NCBI RefSeq assembly: GCF_015910535.1
Contig: NZ_JACBJG010000004.1
Coordinates: 310,001 to 374,000 of the forward strand
DNA from: Saccharomonospora sp. NB11
GTDB lineage: Bacteria > Actinomycetota > Actinomycetes > Mycobacteriales > Pseudonocardiaceae
Reading direction: 5' to 3'
DNA: 64,000 nt
The notes below the pieces were generated by a model. That model saw only the letters and a list, made by a program, of their open reading frames with translations. It was not told where the DNA came from and did no database searches. Each line of letters opens with the position of its first letter. The first letter of the stretch is position 1. Made by a program: the position numbers and the translations under genes. Positions 142 to 9,145 of the stretch are shown here, piece by piece.

Positions 142-3042
142 GTGGCCGAGATCCGCTTTCACCTCCTGGGTCCGCTCGCCGTCGAGATCGACGGCAGAGA
201 AGTGTCGCTGGGCGGTCGGAAACCCCGCCTGCTGCTCGCGGCACTCCTTCTCGAATCCGGCACCCTGGTCTCGACGGACTCGCTGATCGACGTCGTGTGG
301 CCCGAGGACCCGCCCCGCTCCGCGGCGGCCAATCTCCGCACGTACGTCCACTCGCTGCGGCGCGTGCTCACCGAAGAGCGGATCCACCGGGGACCGGCGG
401 GTTACCGGATCGCGGTGGCCCGGGAGGAACTCGACACCACGGCCTTCGCCGACCACGTGACGGCCGCTCGACGAGCCATGGCCGAGGATCGCCCCGCCGA
501 CGCGTTGGCCGAGTTGGCAGCCGCGGAACCACACTGGCGGGGTGCCCCGCTGGCCGACGTCCCCCACCATCACTCCTGGGGTCCGGTGCTCGCCCGCCTC
601 GACGAACTGCGCCTGGCCGCCGACGAACTGCGTGTCCGGGCTCGGCTGGCGTGTGGCGAGCATCGCGACGTCGTGCCGGAACTGCGGGAGATGCTCGGAC
701 GCGACCCGTTGCGCGAGGAACTGTGGGCGCACCTCATCGTCGCGCTCGACCGATGTGGCCGCCGCGCGGAGGCCCGGGAGGCCTACGACGAGGTCGAACG
801 ACTGCTCCGCGAGGAGATGAACGCAGCGCCGGGACCGCAGCTCCGGGGTCTTCGGGCGCGGCTCGCGACCCCGGTGGTGACGGCCGCGCCCCGCACCCCG
901 CAGCGTCCGCCACGCCGTGCCCGAGCGGTGTGTCAGCTCCCGCTCGACGTTCCGGACCTCACCGGTCGCGAGGAGCACGTGGCCGAGGTGATCGCGCTCG
1001 TCCGCCGCCGCCAGGCCTCCGGCGACCCGACGGTGATCGTCCTATCGGGACCACCAGGCGTCGGCAAGTCCAGTTTGGCGATCCACATCGCTCACCGACT
1101 GCGGCGGAACGTCGACGACGACCACCTGCACGTCGGGCTCGCGGGAACCACGCCGGCCCCTCGCGAGCCCTCCGACGTCCTCGGTGAGGTGCTCCGCTCG
1201 CTCGGTGCGTCCGACAAGACCCTGCCTGCCGGTGAGGCCGAACGTGCCGCGGCTCTGCGGTCGGCTCTGGCCCACCGCTGTGCGTGTCTGGTCCTCGACG
1301 ACGCCGCATCGGCCGCCCAGGTGCGTCCTCTACTGCCCGGTGCGGGCACCTCGGTGGTGCTGGTGACCTCCCGCACCCGCATGCCCGAACTCACCGCCGC
1401 CGTCCACCTCGATCTGGACGTACTCGACCACGCGTCCGCGGTGCGGTTATTGGCGGGCATCGTCGGTCAGGCGCGGATCGACGCCGAGCCCGACGACGTC
1501 GCACGCATCGTCGACTCCTGTGGTCGGCTGCCGTTGGCCCTGCGGGTGGCGGGCGCGCGGATAGCCGGACGCCGTCGCCTGTCGCTGTCGTACTTCGCCG
1601 ACCTGCTCACCGACGAACGGCGTCGGCTCGACGAACTCCGCGTCGGCGACCTCGCGGTGCGGGCGAGCCTGGAGTTGAGCTACGCGCGGCTGCCCCAGGA
1701 GGCCGCCACAGTCTTCCGCGCACTCGGGACACTCGGTCCCATCACGTTTCCCGGGTGGACGGTGGGCGCGATCCTGGGCGAGACCGACGACGCGAGCCCC
1801 GTGCTCGACCTGCTCGTCGACGCGCACCTGGTGGACCTCGTCGGCGAGGACGCGACCGGCGCTCCCCGCTACCGCTTGCACGACCTGCTCCGCTGCTACG
1901 CCGCCGAACGCGCCGACGAGACCGACCGGCATCGCATCCGGAGGGTCGTCGAGGGCTACTACGCCACCGCCAGCAGCGCAGTGGAACGCATGCCCGTGCG
2001 GTTCTTCGGCGTCACCCCGCCGTCGGTCCCCGCGGCGTACTGGACTCCCCCGGACCGCGAGCGGCTCGTGCGTGACCCGGTCGCGTGGTTCGACTCCGAA
2101 CACGCCACCGCTGCCGCTCTGCTCGAACACGCCATCGACTTCGCCGCCGACGAACCCGCGTGGCGGCTCGCCACCGTGCTGACGCCCTACTACGACCTGC
2201 GCAACCGCTGGGAGGACTGGTGGCGCGCGGACGAACACGCCCTCGGCGCGGCCCGCAGGGCGAACCAACGGCACGGCGAGGCGATCGTGCTGCGTGACCT
2301 GGGTCAGGTGCGCGTCTACCAGGACCGCTACGAGGAGGCCCTGGCCCTGTTCGACCGCTCGACCGAGCTGTTCGTCGTGCTCGGGGACGAGCAGGGCGAA
2401 GCCGTCACCGTCGCCAGCCGGGGCACGGTGCATCGCATCCGAGGAGAGCGCACCCGGGCGCTCGACTGCTGCCGTAGGGCGCTGGAGTTGTTCTCCCGCA
2501 TCGGCGACCTCCACGGCGAAGCGGTGGCGCGCATCGCGATCGGCACGGTCCGCATGGACGACGGCGCGTTCGACGACGCCGAGACGTGGTTCACCGACGC
2601 CTACGCGCTCGCGTGCGCGATCGGCGACCGCCACCGCGCCGCACACGCCGTCCACCGCCAGGCCCTCCTCCACCAGCGGCGCGGGCAGCTCGGGCTCGCG
2701 CGGCAACGACTCGACGAGGCCATCGCCGTGTTCGACGACCTCGACGACGACCACTGCGCCGGGTACGCGCAGCAGAGCCTCGGCGAGTTGTGCCTGCGCA
2801 GCGGCGAGTTGGCCCACGCCCAACTGCTCCTGGCCAACTCCCTCGCCGTGCACCGCGACACCGGGGATCGCCGCTCCGAGGCGGTCGTCAGCCAACGGCT
2901 CGGCGAGCTCCACGAATCCCTCGGCCAGGAGCAGACCTCCCGGGACTACTTCCACCGGGCGTTGGCGCTGTGGCGGGAGTTGTCGGCCGAACCCCAACGC
3001 TCCGCCGTCGAACGCAGGCTACGACCGGTCGACGAAGCCTGA
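142..3042 (+). CDS. SARP/AfsR-type transcriptional regulator with NB-ARC and TPR domains
   Basis: 966 aa from a GTG start. Residues ~1-95 form a winged-helix OmpR-like DNA-binding domain (RFHLLGPLAVEIDGREV, then GGRKPRLLLAALLL), and ~100-245 a bacterial transcriptional activation domain (BTAD). An NB-ARC ATPase module follows, with P-loop GPPGVGKS at 303-310 and Walker B LVLDD near 383-387. The C-terminal third (~650-960) is a run of TPR helices. This is the AfsR/large SARP architecture, in which nucleotide binding and TPR contacts control activation of target promoters, often secondary metabolite genes. No biosynthetic cluster adjoins it, so the target is unknown; the carotenoid genes are 48 kb away. 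The ORF is intact and of usual length. Confidence 0.88.
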   Translation: MAEIRFHLLGPLAVEIDGREVSLGGRKPRLLLAALLLESGTLVSTDSLIDVVWPEDPPRSAAANLRTYVHSLRRVLTEERIHRGPAGYRIAVAREELDTTAFADHVTAARRAMAEDRPADALAELAAAEPHWRGAPLADVPHHHSWGPVLARLDELRLAADELRVRARLACGEHRDVVPELREMLGRDPLREELWAHLIVALDRCGRRAEAREAYDEVERLLREEMNAAPGPQLRGLRARLATPVVTAAPRTPQRPPRRARAVCQLPLDVPDLTGREEHVAEVIALVRRRQASGDPTVIVLSGPPGVGKSSLAIHIAHRLRRNVDDDHLHVGLAGTTPAPREPSDVLGEVLRSLGASDKTLPAGEAERAAALRSALAHRCACLVLDDAASAAQVRPLLPGAGTSVVLVTSRTRMPELTAAVHLDLDVLDHASAVRLLAGIVGQARIDAEPDDVARIVDSCGRLPLALRVAGARIAGRRRLSLSYFADLLTDERRRLDELRVGDLAVRASLELSYARLPQEAATVFRALGTLGPITFPGWTVGAILGETDDASPVLDLLVDAHLVDLVGEDATGAPRYRLHDLLRCYAAERADETDRHRIRRVVEGYYATASSAVERMPVRFFGVTPPSVPAAYWTPPDRERLVRDPVAWFDSEHATAAALLEHAIDFAADEPAWRLATVLTPYYDLRNRWEDWWRADEHALGAARRANQRHGEAIVLRDLGQVRVYQDRYEEALALFDRSTELFVVLGDEQGEAVTVASRGTVHRIRGERTRALDCCRRALELFSRIGDLHGEAVARIAIGTVRMDDGAFDDAETWFTDAYALACAIGDRHRAAHAVHRQALLHQRRGQLGLARQRLDEAIAVFDDLDDDHCAGYAQQSLGELCLRSGELAHAQLLLANSLAVHRDTGDRRSEAVVSQRLGELHESLGQEQTSRDYFHRALALWRELSAEPQRSAVERRLRPVDEA

Positions 3043-3078
3043 CCGAACCCCGCTCCACCACGTCGTAGGGTGGGAAGC

Positions 3079-3278
3079 GCAGCGGTTCGCCCCGCTCTCC
3101 GGTGGGGCGTCGCAAGAGGGAACCCGGTGCGAATCCGGGACTGCCCCGCAGCGGTGAGTGGGAACGACCGCCGTCATCGAGCACTGGGCCGACCCGGCCT
3201 GGGAAGCGACGGCCAGTAGGAACCGCCTTCCGGTCAGGAACCGGCGGTGTGCCCGCGAGTCCGAAGACCTGCCGCTGC
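3079..3278 (+). promoter_or_regulatory. Cobalamin (B12) riboswitch aptamer
   Basis: The conserved cobalamin core is directly visible: GGTGCGAATCCGGGACTG, then CCCCGCAGCGGTGAG, then later CTGGGAAGCGACGGCCAGTAGG-like sequence and finally GCGAGTCCGAAGACCTGCC. The closing P1 helix pairs GCAGCGG at 3079-3085 with CCGCTGC at 3272-3278. A GC-rich hairpin (GTGCGC/GCGCAC, 3281-3296) follows and could be the expression platform. No U-tract follows it, so control is more likely on translation or by Rho than by an intrinsic terminator. The only gene it can control in this orientation is the thioesterase at 3331. Confidence 0.92.
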
Positions 3279-3330
3279 CCGTGCGCGCCCGCGCACGGCC
3301 GTCCGCCGCGACTCGCGAAGGAGAGCTCAC

Positions 3331-3759
3331 GTGGCACACCGCAGCACCGTCCGTTCCGCACCCGGGCGCAAGGCACCGGCCGACTCCCGGGTGACGCTCG
3401 CCCACATCATGAGCGAGCACGACACCAACCTCTACGGCACCATCCACGGCGGGGTGGTGATGAAACTGATCGACGACGCGGCCGCGGCAGCGGCGGCCCG
3501 CCACGCCGACGGACCGGCAGTGACCGCGTCCGTCGACCGCATGACCTTCCTGGCTCCCGTGCGGGCCGGCGACCTGCTCAGCGTCCATGCGGAGCTGGAG
3601 AGCGCCGGACGGACCTCGATGGCCACGGTGGTCCGGGTGACCTCCGAACGCTGGAACGCCTCGGGTCCCACCACCGACGTCGCGACAGCCCGGCTGACGT
3701 TCGTCGCCATCGACGCACACGGACGTCCCCGGCCCGTGCCCGCCCTGATCACGACGTAG
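3331..3759 (+). CDS. Hotdog-fold acyl-CoA thioesterase under a B12 riboswitch
   Basis: 142 aa from GTG 3331, chosen because GAAGGAGAG lies about 7 bases upstream and the riboswitch ends just before. The motif GTIHGGVVMKLID, the aspartate in DRMTFLAPVRAGD and the following strand are typical of YciA/ACOT-type hotdog thioesterases, which hydrolyse acyl-CoA to free acid and CoA in the cytosol. It stands alone: the next gene is convergent, 14 bases away. Riboswitch control by cobalamin is unusual for this family. A role in draining propionyl- or methylmalonyl-type CoA esters when B12 is short is an inference; substrate cannot be read from sequence. Confidence 0.85.
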   Translation: MAHRSTVRSAPGRKAPADSRVTLAHIMSEHDTNLYGTIHGGVVMKLIDDAAAAAAARHADGPAVTASVDRMTFLAPVRAGDLLSVHAELESAGRTSMATVVRVTSERWNASGPTTDVATARLTFVAIDAHGRPRPVPALITT

Positions 3760-3773
3760 GCGGTCGAGACCTC

Positions 3774-4958
3774 TCACTCCATGAGGGCGTCCTCGGGGAT
3801 CGGCGAGTCGGTGCGCAGTGCCTCGAACAGGGCCTCCGACTTCGCCGGGTCCCACGACTCGGCGGAGGACGAGGTGACCGGCACGGTGGTGGTGACCACG
3901 CCGCCGTCGCCGATCCCCCGCAACGCCCACGCGAGGCCCACCAGGTCGGACAAGCCGTCGTCGGTGTCGAGCGCCAACGCGTCGGGCACCGCGCCCAACA
4001 ACGGGAAGACGTCGAACGGGTTCAGCAAGGTGGCCGGGCTCGCGATCTCGGAGGCGAGCGCGCCGATGAACTTGCGCTGGTTCGCCACGCGGTCGAGGTC
4101 CGAGCGCGGCGTGGCGTCGCTGTACCGCATGCGGACGAAGCCGAGTGCCTGCGCGCCGTCGAGGGTCTGCGTGCCCGCCGGGATCACGATCCCGGTCTTC
4201 GTGTCCCGCATCTCCTTCGGGATGTCCATTTCGACCCCGCCGATGGCGTCGACCACGTTGGCGAACCCGCCGAAGCCGATCTCGGCGTAGTGGTCGATGC
4301 GCAGGCCGGTGGCCTGTTCCACCGTCTGCGCCAGCAGCGGAGCGCCGCCGAAGGCGAACGCCGCGTTGATCTTGTTCACGCCGTGGCCGGGAATCTCCAC
4401 CCGCGAGTCACGGGGCAGGCTCAGCACGGTGGGCGGCGTGTCGTTGTCCGGGATGTGGACGAGCATGATGGTGTCGGTGCGCTGGCCACCCGCGTCACCG
4501 GCGGACAGCTTGGCCCGCTGGTCCTCGTCGAGCCCCTCACGGGAGTCCGAGCCGACGAGCAACCAGTTCGTGCCTTCCGCCGCCGCGGGCCTGCCCTCGT
4601 AGTCGGGCAGCGCGTCGATGCGGTTGATGGAGCTGTCGAGGTAGAACCACACCGCGCCGAGTGCCAGGACCAACACCAGGAACAGCGCCAACAGCACCTT
4701 GCCGAAGGACAACCGCTTCTTGCGCGGGCCTCGTGGCTGCGACGGCGGTGCCTGCGGCGCACGCCCGCGCGGCGGGGGCTGCTGCGGAGCCGGTGCGACC
4801 CGGGTCCGCTGAGGTTGCCGCGGAGCCTGCCGGGCTCCCGCGCCGCCTGGGACGCGCATCATCTGCGCCTGTTGGTGTCGCCCTTGTGGCGGTCTCCGGC
4901 CCGGAGGGGGTGGCCGGTGCCCACCACCTTGTCCACCCGTCTGCCCGCCGTAGGTCAT
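3774..4958 (-). CDS. LytR-CpsA-Psr (LCP) family cell-wall ligase
   Basis: 394 aa. ATG 4958 is preferred over an upstream in-frame codon at 4994 because AGGAG sits 8 bases before it. Residues 1-80 are a Gly/Pro/Gln/Arg-rich cytoplasmic tail, ~86-107 a single membrane helix, and ~128 onward the extracellular LCP domain. Family motifs include LLVGSDSR, RTDTIMLVHI and the arginine-rich SLPRDSRVEI. LCP enzymes transfer lipid-linked polymers such as arabinogalactan or teichoic acids to peptidoglycan. The gene is monocistronic and convergent with the thioesterase. The acceptor polymer cannot be told from sequence. Confidence 0.88.
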   Translation of the reverse strand: MTYGGQTGGQGGGHRPPPPGRRPPQGRHQQAQMMRVPGGAGARQAPRQPQRTRVAPAPQQPPPRGRAPQAPPSQPRGPRKKRLSFGKVLLALFLVLVLALGAVWFYLDSSINRIDALPDYEGRPAAAEGTNWLLVGSDSREGLDEDQRAKLSAGDAGGQRTDTIMLVHIPDNDTPPTVLSLPRDSRVEIPGHGVNKINAAFAFGGAPLLAQTVEQATGLRIDHYAEIGFGGFANVVDAIGGVEMDIPKEMRDTKTGIVIPAGTQTLDGAQALGFVRMRYSDATPRSDLDRVANQRKFIGALASEIASPATLLNPFDVFPLLGAVPDALALDTDDGLSDLVGLAWALRGIGDGGVVTTTVPVTSSSAESWDPAKSEALFEALRTDSPIPEDALME

Positions 4959-5093
4959 GACCACTCCTGATCTGGTGCGGCTGCTGTGCTGCACGCATAC
5001 CTAACCGCATGCTTCGTCACCTAGACGCGGCATCCCCCGAACAGGTTGTGTCGAGATCAGGATTAATCATGGTCGAGACCAGAAAATCCCCGG

Positions 5094-5801
5094 TCAGAGC
5101 ATTCGCCGCCACCGGGAGGGAGCATCGTGAGCAAAGGCACGCGGCAGAATCCCCTCCTCGGGCACGAGTCCCGTGACCTGCGTCGCGAAGTCCGCCGCGA
5201 GCCTGTTCCAGACCAGTGGTCGGCGCATCAGGGCGTGACTCTCCGCCACGACCTCGAACCGGGCCAGCCGCGCGGCGTGGGCGTCGGCCCGTCGCGCGTA
5301 GCGATAGGAGTCCCCGGGCCCGGTCACCGTGTCGTGCACGCCGTGGGCGATGACGACGGTGCGTCCCGCGACGTGCTCGACCGGCTCGTCCTCGGGCGTC
5401 CACGGCGCGAACGCGCAGGCACCGACGACCGCCTCGTCGCCACACACCCTCAGCGCCACGCGCCCACCCATGGAGTGCCCCACGACCACGACGGGCAGCT
5501 CGGGATGCTCGGCGCGGATGGTCTCCAACGCCCACCACGCGTCCTGCACCGGATGCCGGTCGGGCTCGTTCCAGCCCCGCAGCCGGTTACGCAGGAGCCG
5601 CACCTCCAACCCGTGTCGTGCTCCGGCCGCGGACACGGCACGCGCCACCGGCACCATCCGCAGGTACGCCAATCGCCACGGCCGCACGACCTCGGCTCCG
5701 TACTCGGCGCCGCCGTGCAGGACGAGCGCCACCGCCCGGGGCCGTGAGGTGCGGGCCGGGAAAGTGAACAACGACGGTCGGGGGCCTTCGGCAGCGGTCA
5801 T
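5094..5801 (-). CDS. Alpha/beta hydrolase
   Basis: 235 aa. LVLHGG near residue 28 forms the oxyanion region, the nucleophile elbow is GHSMGG with Ser as nucleophile, and a late HGVHDTVTGP segment supplies the acid region and ESHALMRR the likely histidine. No signal peptide is seen. The start overlaps the stop of the upstream ABC transporter by ATGA (5798-5801), so the two are translationally coupled. Substrate is unknown; a soluble esterase or lipase-like serine hydrolase is the safest call. Confidence 0.85.
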   Translation of the reverse strand: MTAAEGPRPSLFTFPARTSRPRAVALVLHGGAEYGAEVVRPWRLAYLRMVPVARAVSAAGARHGLEVRLLRNRLRGWNEPDRHPVQDAWWALETIRAEHPELPVVVVGHSMGGRVALRVCGDEAVVGACAFAPWTPEDEPVEHVAGRTVVIAHGVHDTVTGPGDSYRYARRADAHAARLARFEVVAESHALMRRPLVWNRLAADFATQVTGLVPEEGILPRAFAHDAPSRWRRML

Positions 5802-7666
5802 GCGACCGACCGTTCGTCCGTCGCGAACTGCGTGCGGTAGAGGTCGGCGTACCGACCGCCGGCCGCGAGCAGCTCGGCGTGGGTGCCGCGTTCGGCGACC
5901 CGCCCGTCGTCGACGACGAGGATCTCGTCGGCCGCCCTGACCGTGGAGAGGCGATGGGCGATGACGATGGCGGTCCGGCCGTTCAACGCGTCACCCAGCG
6001 CCTCGCTCACCGCGACCTCCGACTCGGAGTCCAGGTGAGCGGTGGCCTCGTCGAGCACCACCACCCGTGGCTGGGCGAGCAACAACCGAGCGATGGTCAG
6101 CCGTTGCCGCTCGCCGCCGGAGAGTCGGTAGCCCCGTTCGCCCACCACGGTGTCCAGACCATCGGGCAGCGACCGCATCAGCTCCTCCAGCCGGGCACGT
6201 CGCAGGGCCGCCCAGATCTCCTCGTCGTCGGCGTCCGGCCTGGCGTAGGTGAGATTGGCCCGGATGGTGTCGTGGAAGAGGTGCCCGTCCTGCGTGACGA
6301 AACCCACCGTGGTGCGCAGCGACTCGAAGGTCAGGTCCCGCACGTCCACACCGCCCAGCCGCACGGCACCGGAGTCGACGTCGTAGAGGCGTGCCACCAG
6401 GGACGCGATGGTCGACTTCCCGGCTCCCGACGGACCCACGAGCGCCACCATCTGCCCGGGCTCGGCACGGAAGCTGACTCCGTGCACCACCTCCTCACCG
6501 CCTCGGGTATCCACAGTGGACACCTCTTCGAGCGAGGCGAGCGAATGGGTGGACGGCGAGGGATAGGCGAACCGCACGTCGTCGAACTCCACCGACACCG
6601 GCCCGGACGGAACCGCCCTCGCATCCGGCTTCTCGGTGATCGAGGGCTTGAGGTCGAGCACCTCGAAGACCCGCTCGAACGACACGAGGGCCGTCATGAT
6701 GTCCACGCGCACGTTCGCCAACGCCGTCAACGGCGTGTACAGCCGGGTGAGCAACAGCGCCAGCGCCACGACCGTGCCCGGGTCGAGGCGGCCGGTGAGC
6801 GCGAGCCACCCGCCGAGGCCGTAGACGAGAGCCTGGGCCAACGCCGACACGAGCGTGAGGCTCGTCATGAACCACCGTGTGAGCATGGCCGTGCGCACCC
6901 CGATGTCGCGGACCCGGCCCGCCCGCACGCCGAACTCCTCGGCCTCGACCTTCGGCCTGCCGAACAACTTGACGAGCGTGGCGCCGGCCGCCGAGAACCG
7001 CTCGGTCATCTGCGTCGTCATCCCGGCGTTGAGTTCCGCCGCCTGGTGCTGGAGATCAGCCATGCGGCGCCCGATCCGTCGAGCAGGCAGGACGAAGATC
7101 GGCAGCAGCGCCAGGACCAGAAGCGTCACCTGCCACGACAACGTCACCATCACGGCCAGCGAAAGCACGAGCTGGATGACGTTGGTGACGAGCCCGGACA
7201 GCGTGGCGGTGAACGTGCGCTGCGCCCCGATGACGTCGTTGTTGAGCCTGCTCACCAACGCGCCGGTGCGGCTGCGCATGAAGAACGCGACGGGCATGCG
7301 CTGCACGTGTTCGAACACGGCACGTCGCAGGTCGAAGATCAGGCCCTCGCCGATGTGGGCGGACTGCCACCGTTCGGCGAGTCCCAGCGCGGCGTCGGCC
7401 ACGGCGATACCCGCGATGATCACCGCGAGCCAGACCACGGTGGACGCGGACTTGCCCTCGACGATGGCGTCGACCACCCGCCCGGCCAGCAGCGGCGTGG
7501 TGACGGCGAGGACGGCCGACACGACGGTCAGCAGCAGGAAGACGGCCAGCCTGCGCCAGTGCGGTTTCGCGAACGACGCCACCCGACGGACCGTGCCCTT
7601 GCGCAGTCCTCGGGGCGCATCAGCCGACTGCATCGCCCCCCGCAACAGCCCCCACGTATGGTCCAC
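5798..7666 (-). CDS. ABC exporter, fused membrane and ATPase domains
   Basis: 622 aa from GTG 7666, chosen because GAGAGGAG lies 9 bases upstream; an in-frame ATG at 7696 has no such site. Six membrane helices span about residues 45-320. The ATPase has Walker A GPSGAGKST near 411-419, signature LSGGERQRL, Walker B VVVLDEATAHLD and H-loop IAHRLS. It is a type IV (MsbA/LmrA-like) half transporter that would act as a homodimer, exporting lipids, peptides or drugs. The downstream hydrolase overlaps by four bases, which suggests a joint role. Substrate is not predictable. Confidence 0.92.
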   Translation of the reverse strand: MDHTWGLLRGAMQSADAPRGLRKGTVRRVASFAKPHWRRLAVFLLLTVVSAVLAVTTPLLAGRVVDAIVEGKSASTVVWLAVIIAGIAVADAALGLAERWQSAHIGEGLIFDLRRAVFEHVQRMPVAFFMRSRTGALVSRLNNDVIGAQRTFTATLSGLVTNVIQLVLSLAVMVTLSWQVTLLVLALLPIFVLPARRIGRRMADLQHQAAELNAGMTTQMTERFSAAGATLVKLFGRPKVEAEEFGVRAGRVRDIGVRTAMLTRWFMTSLTLVSALAQALVYGLGGWLALTGRLDPGTVVALALLLTRLYTPLTALANVRVDIMTALVSFERVFEVLDLKPSITEKPDARAVPSGPVSVEFDDVRFAYPSPSTHSLASLEEVSTVDTRGGEEVVHGVSFRAEPGQMVALVGPSGAGKSTIASLVARLYDVDSGAVRLGGVDVRDLTFESLRTTVGFVTQDGHLFHDTIRANLTYARPDADDEEIWAALRRARLEELMRSLPDGLDTVVGERGYRLSGGERQRLTIARLLLAQPRVVVLDEATAHLDSESEVAVSEALGDALNGRTAIVIAHRLSTVRAADEILVVDDGRVAERGTHAELLAAGGRYADLYRTQFATDERSVA

Positions 7667-7789: not shown

Positions 7790-9145
7790 ATGGGGACCCA
7801 GGCCGACGAACGGGGGGCGCGCGTGCCGACGGGCACCGTCGCACGCCTACGGGCGGCGCTGAACCGGCGGCCGCTCGTGGTCGACGCACTGCTCTACCTC
7901 GGCTGCGCCTGCTACGCCCTCGTGATGGCGTTCACGGACAAGCACCTCGGATTCCGGGTGTGGGGTGCCTTCGCCACGGCGGGGTACGGACTCGCGCTGC
8001 TGCACACCACCTGGCTGCTCCTCACCCCGAAGGCAGGCCCGTCCCGCGCGCGGTCCCGCTGGCTCGGCCTCGCGGCGGTGGGTCTCGTCGGGATGCTCGC
8101 CCCGCTGGTGACGTTGCTCGTGCGTCGCCAGGTCGCGTACGCCGACTGGACCGACGCCGAAGGGCTGTGGAGCGCACAGCCGGAGGTCTGGGTCATCGAG
8201 CGGGCGGCGAGCACGCTGCTGGACACCGGGAGTCCGTATCTCGACATCGCCGCGCTCGACCGGGCGCCGCACGTGCACGACTACACGCCGTACGGCCCGG
8301 TGATGGCGATCTTCGGGCTGCCGCGAGCGCTGCTCGGCGGCACGCCCGTCGCGGACGCGTTCACCGACGCCCGCGTGTTGTTCACCGTCACCGCGGTGGC
8401 GTGCGTGCTCGCGAGCCTGCGGCTGCTGCGGGTGCCGACACCGTCGATTCGAGCCGCACAACTCGCCGTCGTGTTTCCCCTGACCGCGCTGACCTGGGCG
8501 ACCGCGGGCCCCGACCTGGCGGTCGTGGGGTTGGTTCTGGTGGCGGTCGCTCTCGCGGCCGCGGACCGGCCCGCATGGGCGGCCCTGATCTGCGCGCTCG
8601 TGACGAGCGCCAAACTGATCGCCGCCCCGGCCGCCGTGGTCGTGGGCTTCCTCGTGCTGAGCAGGCTGGGCGTGCGCGCCCTGTTGCGGTCGGGCGCGGT
8701 GTTCGTCGGTGTCACGGCCGCGGTGACGGTGCCCGTGGTGTTGGTGAACCCGAGGGCGTTCACCGAACACGTCCTGCTCTTCCCCGCAGGTCTGGGGGAG
8801 GTCGCCTCACCCGCCGCGAGCCCGCTGCCCGGCAGGTTGCTCGCGAGCACCGGAGCCGTCGGCACCGTGCTCGCGCTGGTGCTCCTGCTCACGGCGGCGC
8901 TCGCCGTGTTGCTGTGGTTGATTCGCCGTCCGCCGACGACGGCAGCCGACGCGGCCTTCCGCATCGCGGTCGGACTCTTCGCCTTCACGATGCTGACGAC
9001 GGCCACCCGCTTCGGCTACCTCGTCTACGTGACGGTGTTACTGGGCGCCGCGTTGGCGTTCCGGAGCCGGGCCACGGCTCCCCTCGGCACCGGTGAACCC
9101 GGCTCCGGAACCCACGGAGATCGGGCCCCTCTTACTTCTTCTTGA
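7790..9145 (+). CDS. Polytopic membrane protein, GT-C/GT87-like glycosyltransferase candidate
   Basis: 451 aa from ATG 7790; the frame is open far upstream but only antisense to the ABC transporter, and a leaderless -10 fits this start. About ten hydrophobic helices are visible. A loop with TGSPYLDIAALDRAPHVHDY followed by TPYGPVMAI resembles the luminal loops of DUF2029/GT87 mannosyltransferases, where an acidic pair near 'DPY' is typical. A polyprenyl-phosphate-mannose dependent transferase of the cell envelope is possible, but this is a weak family match. The 3' end overlaps the convergent HTH gene by 14 bases. Confidence 0.6.
   Translation: MGTQADERGARVPTGTVARLRAALNRRPLVVDALLYLGCACYALVMAFTDKHLGFRVWGAFATAGYGLALLHTTWLLLTPKAGPSRARSRWLGLAAVGLVGMLAPLVTLLVRRQVAYADWTDAEGLWSAQPEVWVIERAASTLLDTGSPYLDIAALDRAPHVHDYTPYGPVMAIFGLPRALLGGTPVADAFTDARVLFTVTAVACVLASLRLLRVPTPSIRAAQLAVVFPLTALTWATAGPDLAVVGLVLVAVALAAADRPAWAALICALVTSAKLIAAPAAVVVGFLVLSRLGVRALLRSGAVFVGVTAAVTVPVVLVNPRAFTEHVLLFPAGLGEVASPAASPLPGRLLASTGAVGTVLALVLLLTAALAVLLWLIRRPPTTAADAAFRIAVGLFAFTMLTTATRFGYLVYVTVLLGAALAFRSRATAPLGTGEPGSGTHGDRAPLTSS

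Follow-up and report, generated by a model that had tools for sequence, protein, structure and literature searches.

A cobalamin riboswitch recurrently paired with a hotdog thioesterase gene in Saccharomonospora and Streptomycetaceae

In Saccharomonospora sp. NB11 a complete cobalamin riboswitch aptamer directly precedes a gene for a predicted hotdog acyl-CoA thioesterase, an arrangement that recurs and is found almost only in a single thioesterase clade, made up of genes from this genus and from Streptomycetaceae. Riboswitches of this class are known to control B12 supply, B12 enzymes or B12-free substitutes. The present target itself lies outside the classical B12 regulon, being neither a B12 supply function nor a substitute for a B12 enzyme, and a classical link is found in relatives, where metE stands in tandem or in line with the thioesterase gene. 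Comparative evidence argues strongly that the thioesterase is regulated by B12. The explanation we favour, to which we give about an even chance when all its parts are taken together, is that of a genuine B12-regulated unit with a switch derived from metE and an origin in Streptomycetaceae, which would be off with B12 and would probably serve acyl-CoA relief. Throughout, the window is the whole 64-kb stretch of DNA analysed; G-labels denote genomes, G000 being that of the window, and L-labels denote loci.

A single RNA-family match was returned by cmscan for the whole 64-kb window, namely to RF00174, with 89.4 bits against a gathering cut-off of 31.5 (E 9e-21) and covering model positions 1-189 of 189, which is far above chance level. 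In the Rfam alignment the aptamer is full length, with P1 closed and the conserved core present (Table 1). The original prediction, made from the letters of the window, had described a complete B12 aptamer with P1 at 3079-3085/3272-3278, in agreement with the Rfam helix, and had placed it directly before GTG 3331; 40 bases on the same strand separate the end of the RF00174 match from that start codon. An alternative, longer in-frame ORF starts at GTG 3247; an alignment of the leaders of 11 relatives shows the GTG 3331 start to be conserved, together with its preceding box.

Table 1. Coordinates of the riboswitch, its leader elements and the thioesterase gene in the window.
Feature	Position	Strand	Basis
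Cobalamin riboswitch aptamer, complete	3066..3290	+	RF00174
P1 5' strand, pairs with 3271-3278	3079..3086	+	Rfam alignment
P1 3' strand	3271..3278	+	Rfam alignment
Part of conserved 3' core CGCGAGUC; fully complementary to 3310-3317, possible alternative helix	3254..3261	+	RNAalifold
G+C-rich hairpin directly 3' of P1	3279..3298	+	Fold
Conserved box GACUCGCGAAGGAGAG... including ribosome-binding site AAGGAG 3318-3323	3310..3330	+	Sequence
Predicted hotdog acyl-CoA thioesterase, 142 aa, GTG start	3331..3759	+	PF03061; profile match to structures

To the right of the thioesterase gene lies a convergent LytR-CpsA-Psr family gene (3774-4994, minus strand), followed by two further minus-strand genes, and the next plus-strand gene, a GT87 gene, starts near 7790. 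Because its neighbour is convergent, the thioesterase gene is the last gene behind the switch, and its earlier designation as the only possible cis target holds. Upstream, a large SARP/AfsR-like regulator gene (BTAD, NB-ARC, TPR) occupies 142-3042 on the plus strand. A gene of this kind comes and goes among the genus genomes while the switch stays: it is called next to the pair in G128 and G144, but G111, G062 and G090 show the switch without a call for it, and we therefore place it outside the switch-thioesterase unit. Further upstream, beyond the window, nrdA and nrdB for class I ribonucleotide reductase (G000:C24:303916-307454; L276 5917-9455) lie about 5.6 kb before the switch on the same strand; the names were taken from the G111 copy, to which the G000 genes are 92-96% identical, and neither L276 nor L277 showed a switch ahead of them.

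The 142-aa product carries a 4HBT domain (PF03061, 72.9 bits against a cut-off of 20.6), and a profile of 16 homologues has its best match among structures of cytosolic acyl-CoA thioester hydrolases of the same 4HBT family (6vfy, 7.5e-47; 4zv3), both of which we take to be ACOT7/BACH. Residues N33, H39-G41 and D48 are invariant among the 16 homologues, and N33 and D48 align in the solved relatives with the catalytic Asn and Asp of the cytosolic hydrolase type. On these alignments the gene product is assigned to the hotdog 4HBT thioesterases of cytosolic acyl-CoA hydrolase type. It differs from the solved enzymes in being bacterial, in standing behind a B12 switch and in lacking tandem hotdog domains, with one 4HBT stretch in 142 aa where solved ACOT7-type chains show two. 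YciA of Haemophilus and E. coli is likewise a related hotdog thioesterase, with 1yli and 3bjk among the profile matches, but the window protein falls below the NCBIfam cut-offs for the YciA equivalog (58.2 vs 162 bits) and for the PaaI equivalog (44.3 vs 118.9 bits).

Within the genus the gene was found in six of 12 genomes at E 1e-10 or better, and three of the six genomes without it are only 82-83% complete. A search of relatives for the same pair, which the original prediction had proposed as a check, bore it out: a same-strand switch stands directly upstream in all six gene-bearing genus genomes (G000; L005, L006, L007, L008, L023), as it does upstream of 19 of 24 Streptomycetaceae genes of the same clade, within about 440 bases. 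Four of the genus genes are intact and two broken, that of G062 having two in-frame stops and the G090 match being without residues 1-51; switches persist before both. The four intact genes, with dN of 0.007-0.084 and dS of 0.043-0.756, are under purifying selection.

The phylogeny of the thioesterase (69 proteins, 129 columns, with many forks unresolved) contains one split, supported at 98/100, between 31 window-clade rows (plus a distant outgroup row) and 37 rows of a sister clade that we call ordinary. Across the 31 window-clade loci, all from the genus or from Streptomycetaceae, 26 have the switch directly upstream (L201, with its switch about 440 bases away, was scored so by hand), two have the order switch-metE-thioesterase (G609, G617), one has a metE remnant without a switch (G618) and two have neither (G865, G820). 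The ordinary clade has a switch in one locus of 37, L010. These counts rest on Rfam and on a profile, a regular-expression search having missed L008 and L023. The aptamers before clade genes score 43-95 bits in distant genomes.

Fifteen loci outside the genus (L009-L022, L024), from a family sample of 150 genomes, were scanned with Rfam; L010 was the only one with a same-strand switch, and at L013, L014, L016, L017 and L018 a switch faces the opposite way. Among the best 80 of 176 loci from named genomes, the five at 75-85% identity (L091-L095), all from Streptomyces or Kitasatospora, have a switch directly upstream, while Rfam found none at 13 others and a profile built from these switches found none at the 75 ordinary-type loci; the same profile was negative at 28 further ordinary-type loci (L172-L199). 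In 394 class-level genomes a near-window gene occurred outside the genus only in G397 (81%). Streptomycetaceae, sampled with 394 genomes, gave 29 matches at E 1e-50 or better, which the tree divides into 24 of the window clade and five of the ordinary clade (L222, L223, L224, L226, L227), so that the clade gene is patchy (24/394). At L010 the switch (2078-2287, minus strand) has no counterpart in the syntenic sister L009, and its pairing with an ordinary-clade gene may possibly be a separate gain.

The genus probably received its thioesterase gene from Streptomycetaceae: its four rows form one group (99/92) among Streptomycetaceae rows, a wider 16-row group not being starred (97/79). The switch itself shares 67% identity with the metE switch of the same genome; against thioesterase switches of Streptomycetaceae the range is 52-78%, and against three metE switches from that family it is 69-77%. 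A DNA tree of switches is poorly resolved, with four of 32 inner branches starred. As the window switch is equally close to metE and thioesterase switches, joint transfer of gene and switch is not proven.

Several arrangements tie the thioesterase to metE. In three genomes the order is switch-thioesterase-switch-metE (L230, the S. chumphonensis locus, which is also L092; L249, whose first switch was found by Rfam and profile; L250). At L244 and L241 it is switch-metE-thioesterase, with a 4-base overlap between the end of metE and the thioesterase ORF, and at L241 metE matches in two frames; at L243 metE residues 492-756 remain. Two other genera have an ordinary-clade thioesterase back to back with switch-metE (metE at L013, L016, L260, L261). 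Directly behind the ribosome box, two of 21 switch-thioesterase leaders scored (28 were supplied) carry DNA that resembles the beginning of metE: 27 of 30 nt in L171, whose leader lacks the ribosome-box motif used and was cut by hand at another box, and 26 of 29 nt in L201, with none of 300 shuffles as good in either case. The next best were L205 (11/300 shuffles) and L211 (13/300), the others being unremarkable, and at the protein level tblastn scores for metE pieces in the leaders were no better than those of shuffles. Some long leaders (L210, L211, L216) contain short ORFs that end on the thioesterase start, in which no clear resemblance to metE was seen. Since metE lies between switch and gene in two relatives and pieces of it in two leaders, the switch probably once served metE and was probably taken over by the thioesterase, which would once have stood in or beside a switch-metE unit and retained the switch after the loss or relocation of metE. 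A B12 gene inserted between the two in relatives had been named beforehand as grounds for doubting the pair; in form such an insertion exists, metE in G609 and G617, but the pairing itself stands, because switch and thioesterase occur together without metE in 26 of the 31 clade loci. One 14-kb stretch of G023 (L261, 6-2712 and 6751-10117) holds a switch-nrdA-type gene, the ordinary-clade thioesterase and switch-metE.

Control is likely to be off with B12 and on when B12 is short, a direction taken from the riboswitch class and from S. coelicolor metE, for which the excerpted text of PMC4365011 describes repression by B12 through termination 155 nt before the start codon. From that distance we infer that termination there falls just 3' of the aptamer, the place occupied in the window by the hairpin at 3279-3298. 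The two switches share their aptamer class (PMC4365011, in excerpt); metE leaders of Streptomycetaceae share the ribosome box, and the long ones share further elements with the switch-thioesterase unit, metE being adjacent in several relatives. They differ in that the Streptomyces target is a B12-independent isozyme and here a thioesterase, and in that the window leader is short, without the long metE-type segment. In the proposed mechanism adenosylcobalamin would shut down the thioesterase transcript, ending transcription at the hairpin, masking the ribosome-binding box, or both, and the enzyme would be made at B12 shortage together with metE, itself under a separate switch elsewhere in the genome.

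The leader gives a mixed picture of this platform. The hairpin has no U-run, a consensus scan called neither a promoter nor a terminator, and shuffled versions of the leader fold just as stably (folding energy z -0.06). The box GACUCGCGAAGGAGAG is nearly unchanged before the start codon in clade leaders, and variants of it precede metE; it opens with eight bases perfectly complementary to aptamer 3254-3261, and RNAalifold on 11 leaders chooses the helix 3254-3261/3310-3317. Within those 11 leaders no pair of the helix shows two-sided covariation. The helix is weakened or broken in L006, L220 and L225, failing in the latter two, and for most leaders between 2 and 61 of 200 shuffles give a pairing at least as good, in a test where L203 and the first rows of L171 and L204 were read at the wrong place.

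The host genome has three RF00174 matches at E 0.001 or better, before the thioesterase gene, metE and a Peripla_BP_2 binding protein gene. The last of these, at L003 (1472-1634, minus strand), is weak, with 42 bits to the AdoCbl model (cut-off 50) and 30 bits to RF00174, under the cut-off; the Peripla_BP_2 gene behind it and a permease-like frame likely form a B12 uptake operon. A metH-type match (PF02965) accompanies the switch-bearing metE, so B12-dependent and B12-free methionine synthases coexist in G000. The genome has three PF01642 mutase-family matches, and searches for CbiC and for PF03972 (PrpD/MmgE) gave no match in it. CbiC, a marker of B12 synthesis, is present in 42 of 50 genomes overall; in the genus it is absent from G000, G111, G144 and G090 and present in G128 and G062, from which it follows that B12 synthesis does not track the thioesterase gene.

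A role in acyl-CoA relief is plausible. The thioesterase would hydrolyse short acyl-CoAs accumulating ahead of B12-dependent mutases, namely propionyl-CoA, methylmalonyl-CoA and perhaps isobutyryl-CoA, and so free CoA. The proposal draws on knowledge of the family, on the connection with metE and on a parallel from engineering, where YciA thioesterases have been used to release acids of the ethylmalonyl-CoA pathway according to the excerpted text of PMC10560148, whose reference list, as excerpted, includes a title on cobalt-deficient conditions. The mutases of G000 and its want of a PF03972 match are compatible with, but do not demonstrate, the drainage of propionyl- or methylmalonyl-CoA, and mutase presence cannot discriminate, PF01642 being found in all 50 genomes tested. 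Among the 394 Streptomycetaceae genomes, taken as the same sample as in the thioesterase survey, PF03972 at 1e-50 occurs in 1/22 vs 71/372 (one-sided p 0.064, kinship ignored), and when only genomes with the switch next to the gene are counted, in 1/19 (p 0.108); this association test of the PrpD family gives the relief role no support.

An apparent anticorrelation of PF03972 with the unit was considered and rejected. Both genus genomes whose gene is broken and both clade members with neither switch nor metE had matches with E below 1e-50, as against one of 26 others (intact gene with switch, metE order or remnant), and the Fisher value of 0.0002 came from a grouping made after seeing the data and was removed by inspection of the gene clusters. 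In G062, G090 and G865 the neighbours of the strong match are CitE/RipC-like genes, joined by CaiB-type CoA-transferases in the latter two, while in G820 they are a gene of the aconitase family and a PrpB-like one under the cut-off; in G090, which has two weaker matches as well, the inspection covered one 15-kb stretch. The sole prpD-prpB-prpC-like cluster among the five inspected belongs to G594, a genome with the pair, where PrpB is over its NCBIfam cut-off and the PrpD and methylcitrate synthase models are just under theirs. The PF03972 family also holds enzymes other than PrpD.

The favoured explanation can be cast as a mobile B12-shortage module, in which the thioesterase took a metE riboswitch and would relieve a mutase backlog alongside MetE, with, in some lineages, a small ORF left in the leader, its stop codon overlapping the start of the thioesterase gene; in this specific form we hold it tentatively, as less likely than not. 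Much of the metE evidence would also suit a hitch-hiking thioesterase caught behind a metE switch, with B12 control left over from metE and either no mutase-linked benefit or a benefit in methionine or one-carbon metabolism under MetE use. This account, which we consider rather unlikely, draws on the interposed metE of G609 and G617, the remnant of G618, the metE pieces in the L171 and L201 leaders, the lack of support from the PrpD test and the broken genes of two genus genomes, but it sits less well with a switch kept beside the gene, with a shared ribosome box, at 26 of 31 clade loci in distant genomes, with the separate pairing at L010 and with the tandem loci, where separate switches precede metE and the thioesterase.

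Regulation by B12 could also serve another substrate or purpose, such as ethylmalonyl-CoA, fatty-acid or polyketide-precursor acyl-CoAs, or a general rise in acyl-CoA turnover. Cytosolic acyl-CoA thioester hydrolases have a broad or long-chain substrate range, and the nearest solved relatives of the window protein are of this kind; YciA, moreover, releases acids of the ethylmalonyl-CoA pathway (PMC10560148, in excerpt), and glyoxylate genes lie near the thioesterase in L091, L232 and L246, namely aceA and a RamB-like regulator gene in all three and malate synthase (aceB) and 3-hydroxybutyryl-CoA dehydrogenase genes in the last two (names direct at L246, with the RamB model just under its cut-off, and by clustering at L091 and L232). 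Yet this neighbourhood occurs in only three of the loci laid out, and the residues that separate the two thioesterase clades (24, 47, 59, 68, 79, 139) give no substrate clue; we regard such a purpose as improbable. The L232 stretch carries switch-metE at its other end. That the switch is inert, a decayed or accidental neighbour, seems to us very improbable indeed: switches do persist before the broken genes of G062 and G090, and the leader has an ordinary folding energy and no called terminator, but aptamers well recognised by Rfam precede the same clade in distant genomes, the ribosome box is common to metE leaders, and ordinary-clade genes, all but one, have no switch.

A search of the open-access literature by titles and abstract starts, with most subscription papers lying outside it, found among the papers listed no report of a thioesterase under a cobalamin riboswitch. 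By term counts 'thioesterase' is absent from the main texts of PMC2258182, PMC4991794, PMC8123684, PMC4365011 and PMC9600662, and where papers combine 'thioesterase' with 'cobalamin riboswitch' and 'metE', the word has, in the portions retrieved, only unrelated senses. A cobalamin riboswitch of Veillonella parvula mutA is named in the excerpted text of PMC9600662; it is likewise tied to methylmalonyl-CoA metabolism, but its target is mutA, the mutase, and not a thioesterase. We thus regard the present case, on comparative grounds, as a known switch class in a real and conserved pairing with a target not found in print.

Acyl-CoA balance is linked to polyketide precursors in actinomycetes. If the favoured explanation is true, a branch of the B12 regulon would handle a metabolic backlog instead of replacing a B12 enzyme; the recurrent thioesterase target would add to the known logic a relief of backlog while the mutases are without cofactor, and through it B12 status would bear on acyl-CoA balance, hence on polyketide precursors. 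It would also be a case of a riboswitch passing from a gene to its neighbour with the intermediates still visible. At L095 a gene for a HoxN/NixA-type nickel/cobalt transporter (4952-6328, minus strand), with an RF00174 switch of its own, lies about 0.6 kb downstream of the thioesterase gene, beyond a Fur-like gene named by eye.
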